From Betaproteobacteria bacterium Ga0077527 (GTDB lineage Bacteria > Pseudomonadota > Gammaproteobacteria > Burkholderiales > SG8-41), in assembly GCA_001464815.1 (NCBI GenBank), contig LNDW01000015.1, positions 62,001 through 126,000 on the forward strand: a DNA stretch of 64,000 bases, in the 5' to 3' direction. Positions 25,196 through 48,932 of the stretch are shown here, piece after piece (within the stretch, counting starts at the first letter, position 1; each line of letters opens with the position of its first letter). The translations under genes and the position numbers were made by a program. The notes below the pieces were generated by a model. The model saw only the letters and a list, made by a program, of their open reading frames with translations. It did no database searches and had not been told where the DNA came from.

Positions 25196-26608
25196 TTACT
25201 TCTTCTTCGCCACCTTGATCTTCATCCCAACCATGCTCTCCGGCTTGACCCACTGGTCGAACTGGGCGCCGGTCAGGTGGCCCAACTGGATCGCCGATTC
25301 CTTCAGCGTCAGGCCCTTCTTGTGAGCGTTCTTGGCGATGGCGGCCGCCTTGGCGTAGCCGATATGCGGGTTGAGCGCGGTCACCAGCATCAGTGATTCG
25401 CGCATCAGCTGGTCGATGCGTTCGCGGTTGGGTTCGATGCCGACGGCGCAGTGTTCCTCGAAGTTTTCGCAGGCATGCGCCAGCAGGTGCGCGCTGTGCA
25501 TGAAGTTGCGGATCACCATCGGGCGGAACACATTGAGTTCGAAGTTGCCCATCGAACCGCCGACGTTGATCGCGGTGTCATTGCCGAAAACCTGGCAGCA
25601 GACCATGGTCATCGATTCGGACTGGGTCGGGTTGACCTTGCCCGGCATGATCGAGGAGCCGGGTTCGTTTTCCGGGATGGAGAGCTCGCCGATGCCGCAG
25701 CGCGGGCCGCTCGACAGCCAGCGGATGTCGTTGGCGATTTTCATCAGCGCGGCGGCGAGTGTTTTCAGCGCGCCGTGGGCGCTGACCACGCCGTCGCAGG
25801 AGCCCAGCGCCTCGAACTTGTTCGGCGCGGTGATGAAGGGCAGACCCGTCAGTTTCTTCAACTGACCTGCCACGTCCTTGGCGAATTTCGGATGGGCATT
25901 CAGACCCGTGCCGACCGCGGTGCCGCCGAGTGCCAGTTCGCACAGGTGGGGGCGTGCGGCATCGATGTGTTTCAGCGCGTGGTCGAGCTGGGCCACATAA
26001 CCGGAGAATTCCTGGCCCAGGGTCAGCGGCGTCGCATCCTGCAGGTGGGTGCGGCCGATCTTGACGATGTTCATGAAGGACTTCGCCTTCTTGTCCAGCG
26101 TGTTGCGCAGTTTTTTCAGCGCGGGTTTGAGGTCTTTTTCCAGCGCGATCATCGCGGCGACGTGCATCGCCGTGGGGAAGGTGTCGTTGGAGGACTGACC
26201 CTTGTTGACGTCGTCGTTCTCGTGCACCAGGCGCGCGGCGCCGCGTTTGCCGCCGAGCAGCTCGGAAGCACGATTCGCCAGCACTTCGTTGACGTTCATA
26301 TTGGTCTGCGTGCCGGAGCCGGTCTGCCACACCACCAGCGGGAAATGATCATCCCATTGACCGGTCAGCGCTTCATCCGCGGCCTTGACGATGGCGCCGC
26401 CTTTTTTCTTGTCGAGGATGCCCAGCGCCATATTGGTCAGCGCAGCGGCCTTCTTCACCAGCACCTGCGCGTGCACCACCGGCAGCGGCATGGTCTCGCC
26501 GGGGAAATGGAAGTGGTGCAGGCTGCGCTGCGTCTGCGCGCCCCACAGCATGTTGTCGGGCACGTCGATCTCGCCCATCGTGTCGTTTTCGATGCGGAAT
26601 TTGGCCAT
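25196..26608 (-). CDS. fumC: Class II fumarate hydratase
   Basis: A 470-residue iron-independent fumarase of the TCA cycle. Family signatures are the [13 protein letters not shown] region, the [11 protein letters not shown] segment, TVGTGLN-like AVGTGLNAH, and the fumarate lyase signature [11 protein letters not shown] near residue 325. It works as a cytosolic tetramer and resists oxidative inactivation. The leader is AT-rich and holds a copy of the ATTTGATTT-type motif. The malic enzyme gene lies upstream on the same strand, separated by 187 bp that include a repeat, so a separate promoter is likely. Confidence 0.96.
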
Positions 26609-37884: not shown

Positions 37885-38631
37885 TCAGATCCTCTCGCCC
37901 AGCGGAGATTCCACCTGGCGCTCGCGCCGCTGTGACACCCGGGTGGCCGTCGGTGCCGGCCCGGTCATGTTCGCAACCACCTGCTGCAGGCGCTGCTTCT
38001 CGCCCAGCACCTTGGTGGTGTAAGTGTCGTTGTCGTCATTCAACGCGCCGGCATACATCTGCAGTGCGATGCCGAGGTTGCCCGTCTTGGTGAAATATTC
38101 CTTGAGGATGCGGGTACCGACGCGGATGTTGGCTTCCGGGTCGAACACGGCGCGCTCGCCGCCGAAGGCCGCCAGCTTGTCGCCATGAAAACGCGGGATG
38201 ATCTGCATCAGGCCCTTGGCACCCATCACGCTCTCGGCGATCGGGTTGTAGCGCGACTCGACCGCGATCACCGCCATGATCAGCAGCGGGTCGAGGCCGA
38301 CACGGCCGCCCTCGGCGTGGGCGATGCGGACAAAGTCCAGGGTCAGTTCCTGGGCGACCTTGTAGCGCTTGGCCAGAAACTCGGCCAGGGCGACATGGCG
38401 CTCATTGTCGGCAGGCACGGCCTCGGGCTGGGCCAGAATCGCGGTGGCTTCCTGCTGTACGACAGCCAGCGCCGAGCCCAATACGCGGACTCCAAGCCGT
38501 TCTTCAAGCAATACGATCAGGGTGGAGAGGCTGGTCAGGACGAGGACCAGCGTAAGCAACTGGCGGACCCGGGGCAGGGCATCTGCCGGGCGGTCTGCTG
38601 CGGATGTTTCTGGAATCGATTTTGCAAACAT
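37885..38631 (-). CDS. Membrane-anchored lytic transglycosylase (SLT domain)
   Basis: A 248-residue protein with an N-terminal membrane span (about residues 26-46, LLTLVLVLTSLSTLIVLL) and a periplasmic SLT domain. The catalytic Glu is in AVESRYNPIAES, followed by GAKGLMQIIP and DPEANIRVGTRIL, the goose-type lysozyme fold signatures. It would cut murein glycan strands to 1,6-anhydro products. AGGAGG lies 6 bp before ATG 38631. Upstream is a promoter with the same geometry and operator as that of nrdA, which hints at co-regulation with deoxynucleotide supply. Confidence 0.92.
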   Translation of the reverse strand: MFAKSIPETSAADRPADALPRVRQLLTLVLVLTSLSTLIVLLEERLGVRVLGSALAVVQQEATAILAQPEAVPADNERHVALAEFLAKRYKVAQELTLDFVRIAHAEGGRVGLDPLLIMAVIAVESRYNPIAESVMGAKGLMQIIPRFHGDKLAAFGGERAVFDPEANIRVGTRILKEYFTKTGNLGIALQMYAGALNDDNDTYTTKVLGEKQRLQQVVANMTGPAPTATRVSQRRERQVESPLGERI

Positions 38632-38729
38632 GCAAAACCTCCTTTCAGATGGCACGGCCGGTAGGGCGGCGCCGGTGGTTACCTCGCTACGGTAACGGTG
38701 GTTCTCCTTAAGACTCGTTCAGCCCAATA

Positions 38730-38795
38730 CCACTACAGGTTGTGGGCCACTCAAAAAAGCTGCGCAATTCTAGGGGTTCAACCTGACCCCCGCAA
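38730..38795 (-). promoter_or_regulatory. Promoter with NrdR-box-like operator, lytic transglycosylase gene
   Basis: Minus strand: -35 TTGCGG (38795-38790), 17 bp spacer, -10 TAGAAT (38772-38767), 21 bp, then CCACAACCTGTAGTGG (38745-38730). The palindrome fits the NrdR core CAC-W-A-N2-T-N-T-W-GTG. Distance and elements are the same as at nrdA. Confidence 0.75.
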
Positions 38796-43560: not shown

Positions 43561-43878
43561 TCAGGGTTTGTTTCCCATCGGGAACGGCCAGGCGCCGGGA
43601 ATCGCGATCGGACGGACAGCTGCGGTAGCCGGAGCCACTGATTTGGGTGCCGGTTTTTTTGCAGCAGTGCGTTTCTTTACCGCAGGCTTTTTCTTGACTG
43701 CTTTTTTCTCAGCCGGCTTTCGAGCCGGCTTTTTTTTGCCCGCCTTTTTTGCCGCCTTCTTGCGGCTTGCCGGTTTTGCCGCGGCCTTGCGCTGCACCTT
43801 CTTAACGGTTTTTTTCTTCGGCGCGGCTTTTTTCTTTGCCACCCTTTTCTTCGATGCCTTTTTCTTCGCTTTTGCCAT
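43561..43878 (-). CDS. Histone H1-like Lys/Ala-rich protein
   Basis: A 105-residue protein whose first 80 residues are a low-complexity array of KKAA, KKPA and KKR units, highly basic, ending in a Pro-rich tail (AIPGAWPFPMGNKP). This resembles the C-terminal domain of eukaryotic histone H1 and bacterial nucleoid proteins such as HctB/AlgP-type and Bpss/BpH2 of Burkholderiales, which bind DNA non-specifically. GGAGG precedes the ATG. A role in nucleoid compaction or gene silencing is likely. Confidence 0.8.
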   Translation of the reverse strand: MAKAKKKASKKRVAKKKAAPKKKTVKKVQRKAAAKPASRKKAAKKAGKKKPARKPAEKKAVKKKPAVKKRTAAKKPAPKSVAPATAAVRPIAIPGAWPFPMGNKP

Positions 43879-44431: not shown

Positions 44432-45541
44432 CTATTCCCAGGACAACGCACCGCCGGTCTGGTACTCGATGACGCGGGTTTCAAAGAAATTGCGCTCTTT
44501 CTTCAGATCGATCATTTCAGCCATCCACGGGAAAGGGTTGGTCGCCCCTTCGAACAGCACATCAAGGCCGATCTGCTGTGCACGGCGGTTGGCAATGAAA
44601 CGCAGGTATTCCTTGAACATCGCGGCGTTCAGCCCGAGCACACCGCGCGGCATGGTGTCCTCGGCGTATTTGTATTCAAGCTCGACACCCTTGTGGAACA
44701 GTTCCTTCAGTTCCTCGCGGAACTCGCTGGTCCACAGATGCGGGTTTTCCATCTTGATGGTGTTGATCAGGTCGATGCCGAAATTGCAGTGCATCGATTC
44801 GTCACGCAGGATGTACTGGTACTGCTCGGCGGCGCCGGTCATCTTGTTCTGGCGGCCCAGCGCGAGAATCTGCGCGAAACCGACGTAGAAGAACAGGCCC
44901 TCCATCAGGCAGGCGAAGACGATCAGGCTTTTCAGCAGCTTCTGGTCGGCTTCCGGCGTACCAGTCTTGAAATTGGGGTTGGTCAGCACGTCAATGAACG
45001 GGATCAGGAACTCGTCCTTGGCGCGGATCGACGAAACCTCGTGGTAGGCGTTGAAAATTTCGCCTTCGTTGAGACCCAGGCTCTCGACGATGTACTGGTA
45101 GGCGTGGGTATGGATCGCCTCTTCAAAGGCCTGGCGCAGCAGATACTGGCGGCACTCCGGCGCGGTGATGTGGCGATAGGTGCCGAGCACGATGTTGTTC
45201 GCCGCGAGCGAATCGGCGGTGACAAAAAACCCGAGGTTGCGCTTGACGATGCGGCGCTCATCTTCGGTCAGGCCGTTGGGATCCTTCCACAGCGCGATGT
45301 CGCGGCTCATCTGGATTTCCTGCGGCATCCAGTGATTGGCACAGGCCGACAGGTATTTGTCCCAGGCCCATTTGTACTTGAACGGCACCAGCTGGTTTAC
45401 ATCGGTACTGCCGTTGATGACGCGTTTGTCGGCAGCGTTGACACGTCGCGACTCAACATCTTCGCGGTCTTGCCGAACGTCCGGGGCCTGCTTGAGCAAA
45501 CCTGCGCCGGGGGACGGCACGGACTCGTCGAATTGCAACAT
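44432..45541 (-). CDS. nrdB: Ribonucleotide-diphosphate reductase subunit beta (class I)
   Basis: A 369-residue R2 subunit that holds the di-iron tyrosyl-radical cofactor. Ligands can be read in SRDIALW (Asp), [11 protein letters not shown] (Glu, His), MEGLFFY (Glu) and [10 protein letters not shown] (Glu, His). The radical Tyr lies four residues after the first His, in the class Ia/Ib position. The C-terminal tail ends GGALSWE. AAGGAG precedes the ATG, and nrdA lies 179 bp upstream on the same strand. Confidence 0.96.
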
Positions 45542-45720: not shown

Positions 45721-48582
45721 TTACTGGCAGGCCTCGCACTCGGGATCGAGAATCGAGCACACCTTGGGTTGCTCCTCCGTCGATGCGCCGTCCGCAGACA
45801 CCGCATTGAGCTGGCCGGCGCGTACGGTCGATTTCTCGGCCGAGGTCGCGCCCAGCGTGCGCAGGTAGTAGGTGGTCTTCAGGCCGCGCAGCCAGGCCAG
45901 CTTGTAGGTGTCATCGAGCTTCTTGCCCGAAGCACCGGCCATGTAGATATTCAGCGACTGCGACTGGTCAATCCACTTCTGGCGGCGCGCGGCGCACTCG
46001 ACCATCCAGCTCGCGTCCATCTCGAAGGCGGTGGCGTAGAGGCTGCGCACATCCGGCGGCACGCGGTCGATTTTCGCCAGCGATCCGTCAAAGTACTTGA
46101 GGTCGGCGATCATCACTTCGTCCCACAGGTTGAGCTTCTTCAGGTCGCGCACCAGGAACTCGTTGACCACGGTGAACTCGCCCGAGAGGTTCGATTTCAC
46201 GTAGAGGTTCTGGTAGGTCGGCTCGATACACTGCGACAGGCCAGTGATGTTGGCGATGGTCGCGGTCGGTGCGATGGCGATGCAATTCGAGTTGCGCATA
46301 CCCACGCGCTGGATGCGGCCGCGCAGCGCGTCCCAGTCCAGCGTGGTCGACATGTCGCATTCGACGTAGCCACCGCGCTCTTCGGCGAGCAGGCGCATCG
46401 AATCCAGCGGCAGGATGCCGCGTTCCCACAGCGAACCCTTGAACGTCGAGTACGGGCCGCGCTCTTCGGCGAGATCGGCCGACGACGAGTAGGCGGTGTA
46501 GGCAACCTGCTCCATCGAGCGGTCGGCGAACTCCACCGCGGCCGGCGAACCGTACGGGATGCGCAGCATGTGCAGGCAGTCCTGGAAGCCCATGATGCCG
46601 AGTCCCACCGGACGGTGCTTGAAGTTCGAATTGCGCGCCTTGTTGACGTTGTAGAAGTTGAGGTCAATGACGTTGTCGAGCATGCGCATGCCGGTGCCGA
46701 TGGTGCGCTTGAGCTTCTCCATGTCGAGCTTGCCGGTCGACAGGTCAAGATGGGCCGGCATGTTGACCGAAGCCAGGTTGCAAACGGCGATTTCGTCAGG
46801 GCCGGTGTTCAGCGTGATCTCGGTGCACAGGTTGGAACTGTGCACGACACCGACGTGGCTCTGCGGCGAGCGCAGGTTGCAAGGATCCTTGAAGGTGATC
46901 CAGGGGTGGCCCGTCTCGAACAGCATGGTCAGCATCTTCCGCCACAGCTGCATCGCGGGAACCCTCTTGAACAGCTTCATCTCGCCGCGGGTGCATTTAG
47001 ACTCATATTCGACATAGGCCTTCTCGAAGGCCCTGCCGAACTTCTCGTGCAGGTCGGGCACATCCGAGGGCGAGAACAGCGTCCACTCGCCGTTTTCCAT
47101 CACCCGCTTCATGAACAGGTCGGGAATCCAGTTCGCGGTGTTCATGTCGTGGGTGCGGCGACGGTCGTCGCCGGTGTTCTTGCGCAGCTCGAGGAATTCC
47201 TCGATATCAAGGTGCCAGGACTCCAGGTACGAACATACCGCGCCCTTGCGCTTGCCGCCCTGGTTGACCGCCACCGCGGTGTCGTTGACCACCTTCAGGA
47301 AAGGCACCACGCCCTGCGACTTGCCGTTGGTACCCTTGATGTAGGCGCCGAGGGCGCGCACGGGGGTCCAGTCGTTGCCGATGCCTCCGGCATACTTCTG
47401 CAGCATCGCGTTTTCCTTGATCGCCTCGTAGATGCCATCAAGGTCATCCGATACCGTGGTCAGGTAGCAGCTCGCGAGCTGCGAGCGGCGGGTGCCCGAG
47501 TTGAAAAGCGTCGGCGTGGAGCTCATCAGGTCAAAGCTCGACAACACATTGTAAAACTCGATGGCGCGCGCTTCGCGGTTGCCTTCCGGCTCGTTCAGCG
47601 CAAGGCCCATCGCCACACGCATGAAGAACACCTGCGGCAGCTCGATGCGCTGGCCTTCGATGTGCAGGAAGTAACGGTCGTAGAGAATCTGCAGGCCGAG
47701 GTAGGCAAACTTGAGGTCGCGGTTCGCGTCCAGCGCGGCGCCCAGTGCCTTCATGTCGTAATGGCCAAGGCGTTCGTCGAGTAGCTCGGCGGCAATGCCC
47801 TTTTTGATGAACTCGGGGAGGTAGGCGGCGTAACGCGTCGCCATTTCCTCGTGGGTCACCTCCTCGCCCAGCGTTTCCAGGCGCATCGTGTGCATCAACA
47901 GGCGGGCGGTGACATAGCTGTAGCCGGGGTCCTGCTCGATCAGGCCACGCGCGGCGAGGATCAGCGACTTGCGCACCTCTTCGATCGGCACGCCATCGTA
48001 GAGATCGCGCTGCATGGCTTCGAGGATCGGCGCAGCGCTGACGTCGCGGCCAAGCCCGGCGCAGGCGCCTTCGACCAGCGCGGTGATGCGCGCAACATCC
48101 ATCGGGCGCTTCACGCCATTGTCGGTGACGTTGAGCACCGGAGCCTTCTCGGCGCCGACCGCCGGCTGGATCTCGCGCTGGCGCGCCCGCTCCCGGGTAC
48201 GCTCTTCGCGATAGAGCACATAGGCACGGGCAACGTGATGCTCGCCGTTGCGCATCAGCGCCAGCTCGACCTGATCCTGAATGTCCTCAATGTGGAATGT
48301 GCCGCCAGAGGGCTGGCGACGCATCAGCGCGGTAACGACGCTCTCGGTGAGGGCTGCCACCTGCTCACGCACGCGCGCGGAGGCGGCACCCTGGCCACCA
48401 TTGACCGCAATAAAGGCCTTGGTCAGCGCAATGGCAATCTTCGAGGGTTCGAATCCGACTACCGCGCCATTGCGGCGGATGATCCGGTATTGCGCATAAA
48501 CCGCTTCGCGTTCCGCATCATCGACAGGGGCTGTGATTTGGGGGTTGCTGCGGGGCTGGACCGAATCGGTGGTGACTTGCAT
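45721..48582 (-). CDS. nrdA: Ribonucleoside-diphosphate reductase subunit alpha
   Basis: A 953-residue catalytic subunit, about 200 longer than E. coli NrdA. An ATP-cone is visible at about 31-130 (RRNGAVVGFEPSKIAIALTK), and a second, weaker cone-like region follows near 150-245 (VKRPMDVARITALVEGACAG). The barrel has the SQLASCYLTTV and GGKRKGAVCSYLESW regions, and the tail ends CSILDPECEACQ, the redox CxxC that reloads the active site. AAGGAG precedes the ATG. The leader carries an NrdR-box-like operator just downstream of the promoter. Confidence 0.96.
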   Translation of the reverse strand: MQVTTDSVQPRSNPQITAPVDDAEREAVYAQYRIIRRNGAVVGFEPSKIAIALTKAFIAVNGGQGAASARVREQVAALTESVVTALMRRQPSGGTFHIEDIQDQVELALMRNGEHHVARAYVLYREERTRERARQREIQPAVGAEKAPVLNVTDNGVKRPMDVARITALVEGACAGLGRDVSAAPILEAMQRDLYDGVPIEEVRKSLILAARGLIEQDPGYSYVTARLLMHTMRLETLGEEVTHEEMATRYAAYLPEFIKKGIAAELLDERLGHYDMKALGAALDANRDLKFAYLGLQILYDRYFLHIEGQRIELPQVFFMRVAMGLALNEPEGNREARAIEFYNVLSSFDLMSSTPTLFNSGTRRSQLASCYLTTVSDDLDGIYEAIKENAMLQKYAGGIGNDWTPVRALGAYIKGTNGKSQGVVPFLKVVNDTAVAVNQGGKRKGAVCSYLESWHLDIEEFLELRKNTGDDRRRTHDMNTANWIPDLFMKRVMENGEWTLFSPSDVPDLHEKFGRAFEKAYVEYESKCTRGEMKLFKRVPAMQLWRKMLTMLFETGHPWITFKDPCNLRSPQSHVGVVHSSNLCTEITLNTGPDEIAVCNLASVNMPAHLDLSTGKLDMEKLKRTIGTGMRMLDNVIDLNFYNVNKARNSNFKHRPVGLGIMGFQDCLHMLRIPYGSPAAVEFADRSMEQVAYTAYSSSADLAEERGPYSTFKGSLWERGILPLDSMRLLAEERGGYVECDMSTTLDWDALRGRIQRVGMRNSNCIAIAPTATIANITGLSQCIEPTYQNLYVKSNLSGEFTVVNEFLVRDLKKLNLWDEVMIADLKYFDGSLAKIDRVPPDVRSLYATAFEMDASWMVECAARRQKWIDQSQSLNIYMAGASGKKLDDTYKLAWLRGLKTTYYLRTLGATSAEKSTVRAGQLNAVSADGASTEEQPKVCSILDPECEACQ

Positions 48583-48932
48583 GCATTACTCCTTGATATT
48601 TTTGGCTTTTTTATATGCCGCCACACCTGAGCCTCACCTGGGCGCCGCGGACCACCAACCACAACATCTTGTGGTTTGAACTCAAATTTGGGCAAATTCT
48701 AGTAGTCCGTTTTTGAATCCGCAATAGCTTTTGACGCTTTTTTTAAAAGTTCCGGCAAAACAACAGGAACGGGGTTTAAGCACCGGATTTTCTGCACAAA
48801 TTTTGGGCAGCCGATCAGGCCACATTGGTGCATGGGGGCTATATTGGCGCGTGGCAAGTAAGGGGCGCCAAAAGAGCCACAAAAGGCCGCCAGCAGCCCT
48901 TCAGCCACCTCAAACCACGGGGGTCCCCGCCC
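48583..48932. other. 350 bp gap between nrdA and ampD
   Basis: Contains the nrdA promoter-operator (48659-48724) and an untranslated leader with AAGGAG. The rest, up to the ampD end at 48933, shows no gene I can support. Confidence 0.65.
48659..48724 (-). promoter_or_regulatory. nrdA promoter with NrdR-box-like operator
   Basis: Minus strand: -35 TTGCGG (48724-48719), 17 bp spacer, -10 TAGAAT (48701-48696), 21 bp, then CCACAAGATGTTGTGG (48674-48659). The 16 bp palindrome fits the known NrdR box core, and a single copy is visible where two are usual. Confidence 0.8.

Follow-up and report, generated by a model that had tools for sequence, protein, structure and literature searches.

NrdR is described, in the accessible parts of PMC12051234 and PMC4409342, as a regulator of ribonucleotide reductase genes, and the other target with a box that is named there is topA of Pseudomonas aeruginosa, on which NrdR seemed to be activating, an activation that PMC12051234 doubts. 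According to the same part of PMC12051234, NrdR sites require two boxes separated by a spacer of 14 to 17 bp, and on one-box DNA the Escherichia coli protein binds 530 to 1000 times more weakly. In the P. aeruginosa nrd promoters, as presented in the part of PMC4409342 at hand, box 1 overlaps the -10 element. As for genes of SLT lytic transglycosylases, BTH_s13 is a conserved and processed 5'-UTR RNA of the SLT gene BTH_I1527 of Burkholderia thailandensis, and it was proposed to act post-transcriptionally (PMC4035088, accessible part). An open-access literature search found, in titles and abstract openings, no link between NrdR and a lytic transglycosylase; likewise, the words "slt" and "murein" are absent from the main text of PMC5343134, the part of that study of 186 proteobacterial NrdR regulons that was available.

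A promoter and dyad shared by nrdA and a lytic transglycosylase gene

The window, by which we mean the whole stretch of 64,000 nucleotides analysed, contains a gene for an SLT-domain lytic transglycosylase (LT) and the genes of a class I ribonucleotide reductase. An earlier note on this DNA had claimed that the LT gene and nrdA share one promoter type and one dyad at equal spacing, and both sites are indeed present to the base: the arrangement TTGCGG-N17-TAGAAT-N21-16-bp dyad precedes both genes, both on the minus strand, with the dyad CCACAACCTGTAGTGG at LT and CCACAAGATGTTGTGG at nrdA. The features concerned are the following.

37885..38631, minus strand: LT gene, 248 aa (SLT domain PF01464, 62.4 bits)
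38730..38745, minus strand: NrdR-like box 2 of LT, which is the dyad of the earlier note, CCACAACCTGTAGTGG (20.3 bits with the nrdA box-2 matrix)
38761..38776, minus strand: NrdR-like box 1 of LT, degenerate, CCCCTAGAATTGCGCA, overlapping the -10, its centre 31 bp from that of the dyad
38767..38772, minus strand: LT promoter -10 hexamer TAGAAT (identical in 20 aligned relatives, in an alignment anchored on this hexamer itself)
38790..38795, minus strand: LT promoter -35-like hexamer TTGCGG (TTGC at N17 in 20/20 aligned promoter-bearing relatives)
44432..45541, minus strand: nrdB, class I ribonucleotide reductase beta (NF005550, 688 bits)
45721..48582, minus strand: nrdA, class I ribonucleotide reductase alpha (NF005544, 1722.4 bits)
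48659..48674, minus strand: NrdR box 2 of nrdA, CCACAAGATGTTGTGG (promoter comparison and matrix score)
48690..48705, minus strand: NrdR box 1 of nrdA, containing the -10 TAGAAT (48696-48701)
48719..48724, minus strand: -35-like hexamer of nrdA (by sequence)

The LT protein consists of an N-terminal membrane segment, recognized by eye, and the SLT domain, and it reached no cut-off in NCBIfam. The host genome also encodes nrdR (TIGR00244, 201.1 bits against a cut-off of 124.65). Downstream of LT, and separated from it by a small frame that has no NCBIfam match, lies a gene for a PhaM-family polyhydroxyalkanoate granule protein (NF043076; 37170-37445, minus strand), and at 43561-43878 on the minus strand we could observe a Lys/Ala-rich frame of 105 aa that is histone H1-like by eye.

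With up to 3 mismatches allowed, the sole matches to the full composite in the window are 38730-38795 and 48659-48724, both on the minus strand, and 100 shuffles of the window gave no match. In the host assembly (3.4 Mb in 26 contigs, 91% complete), the dyad pattern CCACAANNTGTNGTGG occurs without mismatch at exactly two sites, those of nrdA and LT. A further palindrome, CCACAGCATGTTGTCG, is found at 26543-26558 of the window, 2 mismatches off the dyad pattern. The distance from the LT site to the nrdA site is 9.9-11.2 kb in four genomes (the window host, G302, G304 and G309), with both sites on one strand, and this linkage might have aided the sharing of the promoter type.

Conservation of the promoter and dyad among relatives

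A collection of species genomes was queried with the LT protein; 113 relatives were confirmed and the best 80 taken, and 21 of these best 80 (of 113) carry a full-length match to the model of the LT leader described below. The 21 are metagenome bins, mostly labelled betaproteobacterial or Burkholderiales. Outside this set we considered L034, with a weak partial leader and no promoter found, L111 and L135, which belong to the genus of the window and have the box in register, and L136, L137 and L139, which have the leader and no in-register box; L110 and L134 repeat L032, and L138 repeats L082. Some titles are misleading: those of L044, L066, L076, L079 and L086 give Bordetella parapertussis, Chitinophaga pinensis or Klebsiella pneumoniae as the organism, but L044, L066 and L079 group with betaproteobacterial bins in the LT tree, which does not include L076 and L086.

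In each of the 21 leader-bearing genomes nrdA was found, its promoter presenting TAGAAT, N21 and the dyad in 21/21 cases, with a first box over the -10, and a TTGC -35 at N17 in all cases except L127 (20/21). The LT promoters retain the in-register dyad, that is box 2, in 17/21 loci that span two LT clades; the dyad is lost in L040, L066 and L081 and there is none in L082, while the nrdA boxes of these genomes are intact. The sharing of an nrdA-type promoter and operator, as the earlier note had put it, is therefore borne out by conservation at fixed spacing. Box matrices were built from 22 nrdA sites and compared with a background of 1.66 million positions that includes the LT sites. At a single fixed position each, the kept LT boxes 2 fall within the best 6e-7 to 7.5e-5 of this background, with scores from 8.9 bits (L043) to 28.1 (L037); the window box (20.3 bits) has a background fraction of 1.5e-5 at its fixed position. 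Since the nrdA sites score 23.7-29.0 bits, the LT box 2 stays below them in the window and in most relatives.

Among the wider LT relatives the picture changes. A regular-expression scan of the 59 other loci of the best 80 (of 113), extending at most 500 bases upstream from the match, gave no box; it covers the promoter in part at loci whose contig ends there or whose gene start is far upstream. Thirty further LT loci were obtained, a match being present in 50/160 genomes, and the 27 that were scanned (3 of the window genus were omitted) contained no pair in register whose second box is strong. The LT relative L186, from another family, has a weak NrdR-like pair in register; on the reading strand its boxes stand 327 and 358 bases before the match and agree with the consensus at 11 and 9 of 16 positions. 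In L136 the dyad stands 29, not 21, bases past TAGAAT, hence out of register. The earlier note had made its case depend on conservation of the dyad upstream of orthologous transglycosylase genes, and on this point the outcome is mixed, the dyad being retained in 17/21 leader-bearing relatives and not found in the distant ones scanned, barring the weak pair of L186.

For the 18 promoters with a kept box (the 17 and the window), the mean pairwise identity is 0.94 in the left half-site and 0.90 in the right one, against 0.45 in the spacer between -35 and -10, 0.58 over the final 17 gap bases and 0.40 downstream; the first 4 gap bases, on the side of box 1, reach 0.79 and the -35 reaches 0.80, the rest lying at 0.39-0.58. 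In the clade of the window genus alone there is little contrast (gap 0.88, its last 17 bases 0.93, half-sites 1.0), the gap being nearly as conserved as the half-sites, so that the contrast depends on the other clade and on the comparison between clades. Moreover, the 17 kept loci are related and do not represent 17 independent events, and the tree of 53 LT proteins, in which the box is present in two clades, leaves undecided whether it had one origin or more.

These values bear on the idea of a decaying NrdR site, once nrdA-like, where NrdR has ceased or is ceasing to act and only the leader RNA still works as a control. Such decay would agree with the degraded box 1, with the 4/21 loci that have no dyad and with the persistence of the leader where the dyad is gone; nevertheless, in the 18 kept promoters the half-sites are far better conserved than most of their surroundings, and we consider decay improbable.

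Specificity of the box pattern in whole genomes

The pattern CACWANNTRTWGTGG was searched in 19 of the 22 leader genomes (G300, G301 and G320 were omitted) and gave 44 rows, corresponding to 37 distinct sites once palindromes were merged: 19 at nrdA, 13 at LT and 5 elsewhere. Genomic context verified 16 of the nrdA sites, the assignment of the other three (G305, G315, G319) being by coordinates; of the LT sites, 9 are verified by context and 4 (G314, G306, G316, G317) are assigned by sequence and coordinates. The reversed control pattern has 34 matches in the same 19 genomes, about as many as the pattern itself, so that the site count carries no weight by itself and it is the positions of the sites that are informative. 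In particular, among the 29 sites with a locus, TAGAAT lies at one identical distance in 16 nrdA and 9 LT sites and in 0/4 of the others. The host genome has 2 sites for the pattern and 0 matches for the reversed control.

The five extra sites were treated as chance occurrences and not as operators, being in open reading frames and/or devoid of TAGAAT. Those of G308, G315 and G319 are within open reading frames and that of G314 looks intergenic; TAGAAT was sought at these four and none was found. The fifth (L200 1244; G306:C109:9644) is an NrdR-like palindrome that looks intergenic and precedes a transporter-binding-protein-like frame and is near a lexA-like frame, both recognized by eye, and TAGAAT is absent from the 70 bases before it.

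A mere coincidence would combine a common promoter type with a chance palindrome. Each of the two could well occur by chance, and the reversed pattern is about equally frequent; on the other hand, the composite has no match in shuffled sequence and is conserved at fixed spacing, which makes this explanation hardly credible. The resemblance between the LT and nrdA sites is beyond chance.

Two boxes and the fit to NrdR

The earlier note had seen a single box at each site, downstream of the -10. The site is probably not a single box: a first box over the -10 is clear at nrdA in relatives and degenerate at LT, most of all in the window, so that the reservation of the earlier note is partly answered. 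Box 1 occupies 38776-38761 at LT and 48705-48690 at nrdA, with a 15-bp spacer to the dyad, and the box centres are 31 bp apart at both genes. At nrdA, box 1 reads CCACTAGAATTRGT in 13/22 cases and scores 21.1-28.3 bits, compared with 7.9-21.2 bits in the kept LT loci, where the window has the lowest value, 7.9. In the left half of the LT box 1, ACTA is present in 14/20 relatives and the full CCACTA in 9/20, the window genus having CCCC or CACC; in the right half, after TAGAATT, LT mostly has GCC or GGC compared with RGT at nrdA. The two genes also differ in box 2, as position 8 is A in 22/22 nrdA sites and in 3/18 kept LT sites. Judged in this way, the putative LT operator is a good, imperfect box 2 accompanied by a weak box 1.

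At positions 5 and 12 the NrdR consensus, which was also employed in some of the scans, permits W, and this touches on the suggestion that the dyad acts as a hairpin at the beginning of the mRNA and not as an operator. The dyad is downstream of the -10 and so should be transcribed; however, A5 and A12 are left unpaired in 13/18 kept LT dyads and in 13/22 nrdA dyads, and an RNA stem would not favour W where the consensus permits it. The frequent mismatch disfavours the hairpin, which we hold to be very improbable.

Another regulator could occupy the LT dyad, either one that also acts at nrdA or one specific for LT that recognizes a similar palindrome. The different centre of the LT dyad, which is CC or GC in 12/18 cases, and the departure from A at position 8 speak for such a regulator, as does the weakness of box 1 at LT. 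Against it, the register to the -10 equals that of the nrdA pair in 17/21 loci, and in L037/G305 the LT and nrdA boxes differ at 1 base of 16; a second regulator is unnecessary and we deem it unlikely, if the most serious of the alternatives.

NrdR itself, the binder proposed by the earlier note, is suggested by the sequence of the boxes, the two-box spacing, the overlap with the -10 and the presence of nrdR in the genome, and it is disfavoured by the weak box 1 and the mostly missing A8. On balance, we regard the LT gene as a rather probable second NrdR target.

A structured leader before the LT start codon

The LT gene is preceded by a predicted mRNA leader of about 100 nt, absent from the earlier note, with three helices, P1, P2 and P3, whose elements are as follows.

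38614..38713, minus strand: structured mRNA leader (models R1 and R2), including the start-codon hairpin (80.6 bits with R1, the window leader itself being among the R1 model sequences)
38678..38696, minus strand: helix P1, GTTACC/GGTAAC with loop GTAGCGA (98.6% of cells paired)
38651..38673, minus strand: helix P2, variable in sequence (83.4% of cells paired; position from the window fold)
38638..38643, minus strand: Shine-Dalgarno sequence AGGAGG (invariant in the 20 rows of alignment A2)
38618..38639, minus strand: helix P3, GGTTTTGC/GCAAAATC, around the start codon (100% paired, invariant in 20 rows)

The loop of P3 holds the start codon, part of which is paired in the window, and the helix takes up the final GG of the Shine-Dalgarno sequence. 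Folded alone, P3 has from -6.2 to -8.8 kcal/mol across the loci, the window having -8.8. The exact sequence GAAAGGAGGTTTTGC stands before the start codon in 19/21 LT loci, and in most LT loci it is followed by GTCATGGCAAAATC or (A/G)TGTTTGCAAAATC; the exceptions, L080 and L082, have variants of it. L082 presents a varied P3 hairpin with one compensated pair, and both L080 and L082, when folded alone, form shifted P3 hairpins.

Covariation supports the fold. In the alignment of 25 leader hits (24 distinct rows), which was fitted to the structure, 94% of cells pair, compared with 24-52% in slid versions, and both-sided changes occur in 10/21 pairs (24 cells), a level reached by 0/500 shuffles. 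A MAFFT alignment of 20 rows has 92.1% of cells paired and both-sided changes in 6 pairs (10 cells), again with 0/500 shuffles reaching it. By helix, the both-sided changes concern 7/7 pairs of P2, 2/6 of P1 and one of P3, and therefore the covariation is mostly that of P2. Weaker signals come from thermodynamics: the fold of the window leader has a z of -1.3 relative to shuffles, 21/200 of which are at least as good, the RNAalifold covariation term is small (-0.8), and P1 has a probability of at least 0.66 in only 17/22 leaders.

With regard to P3, codon usage is informative. The codons of the P3 arm are GCA and AAA in 20/20 LT genes, while elsewhere in the same genes GCA accounts for 88/676 other Ala codons (13%) and AAA for 67/186 Lys codons (36%). 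It seems that in this arm the RNA and not the protein is selected, although the relatedness of the genes calls for caution.

Distribution of the leader and known RNA families

A search with model R1 found the leader in single copy in the host genome. With stricter filters, R1 gave one match each in 7/200 genomes at the level of the order, host included, and R2 one match in 369 genomes at the level of the class, which is the host itself. Of the other six R1 leaders, five read into an LT frame or its start, and for that of L139 the coordinates indicate a position before LT. The 15-mer at the Shine-Dalgarno sequence is present, without mismatch, in 3/300 order-level genomes, all of the same genus as the window. 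In the searches made, the leader was found solely before LT genes.

L082/L138, L137 and L139, from a different family within the order, have the leader and not the dyad, so that one control can exist apart from the other, and of the two the leader may be the older.

At the gathering score, Rfam 15 gave no match in the leader of the window or of the 11 sources searched, which include L037, L062, L068, L136, L137 and L139. With E up to 10, the window gave only psRNA14, weakly and at a position upstream of the leader, and L062 gave nothing. On these grounds no Rfam 15 family covers the leader. NrdR operators are already known, and what is new is the structured LT leader, without a match in Rfam 15.

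The LT genes of Massilia (L094, L099-L103, L105, L106, L108) possess a long and highly conserved leader of their own, about 260 bases before the start, with several predicted helices and double changes in 6/56 predicted pairs. It is unlike the window leader, and model R2 has no match in the Massilia LT leaders.

Proposed regulation of LT and nrdAB

Taking these elements together, LT is probably a lineage-specific NrdR target, repressed with nrdAB at high dATP. With abundant dATP, NrdR carrying ATP and dATP would bind the box pair and cover the -10 and the start region, repressing nrdAB and, less strongly, LT; we expect the weaker repression of LT because its box 1 is degraded, and repression at high dATP because this is the known behaviour of NrdR. 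At low dNTPs both nrdAB and LT would be released, and murein cutting would consequently rise with the demand for DNA precursors. The LT mRNA should start with the structured leader, in which P3 would set or gate translation as a second control that does not depend on NrdR. LT genes of this kind may share the presence of a controlled leader.

Growth and division require that the supply of deoxynucleotides and the opening of the cell wall stay coordinated, and we hypothesize that wall cutting follows the need for DNA precursors. A conserved NrdR-type operator on a murein hydrolase gene would be a direct transcriptional wire from deoxynucleotide supply to wall opening, and the leader RNA provides a second control point of LT that can be tested. 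The complete scheme goes further. NrdR, as the sensor of the ATP/dATP state, would directly control a regulon of two operons, that of ribonucleotide reductase and that of one dedicated, membrane-bound murein hydrolase. The start codon of the hydrolase would be gated by a leader RNA of a new family, and one mRNA would thereby integrate the DNA-precursor state with a second signal for wall opening. We offer this tentatively, as possible and well short of probable.

Comparison with known systems

The following comparisons refer to the accessible parts of the papers cited. In the NrdR operators of E. coli nrdHIEF and P. aeruginosa nrd, 14-17 bp separate the two boxes, a range that includes the 15 bp of LT (PMC12051234), and at P. 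aeruginosa nrd, as at LT, the first box overlaps the -10 (PMC4409342). Different from the nrd operators, the target at LT is a murein hydrolase gene, box 1 is weak and position 8 of box 2 is usually another base. P. aeruginosa topA is, like LT, a gene outside ribonucleotide reductase with an NrdR-like box (PMC4409342); however, topA has one box, while LT has a degenerate partner box over the -10, in register.

As regards the leader, BTH_s13 is similar by description, as a conserved leader before a betaproteobacterial SLT lytic transglycosylase gene, but it measures 209-400 nt, compared with about 100 nt for the LT leader (PMC4035088). The YjbJ motif (WRC-39-1) is, like the LT leader, a structured RNA upstream of a murein hydrolase gene, in its case that of a predicted lytic transglycosylase; it belongs to Streptococcus and has two hairpins located about 30 nt before the Shine-Dalgarno sequence, the likeness again being one of description (PMC11109978).
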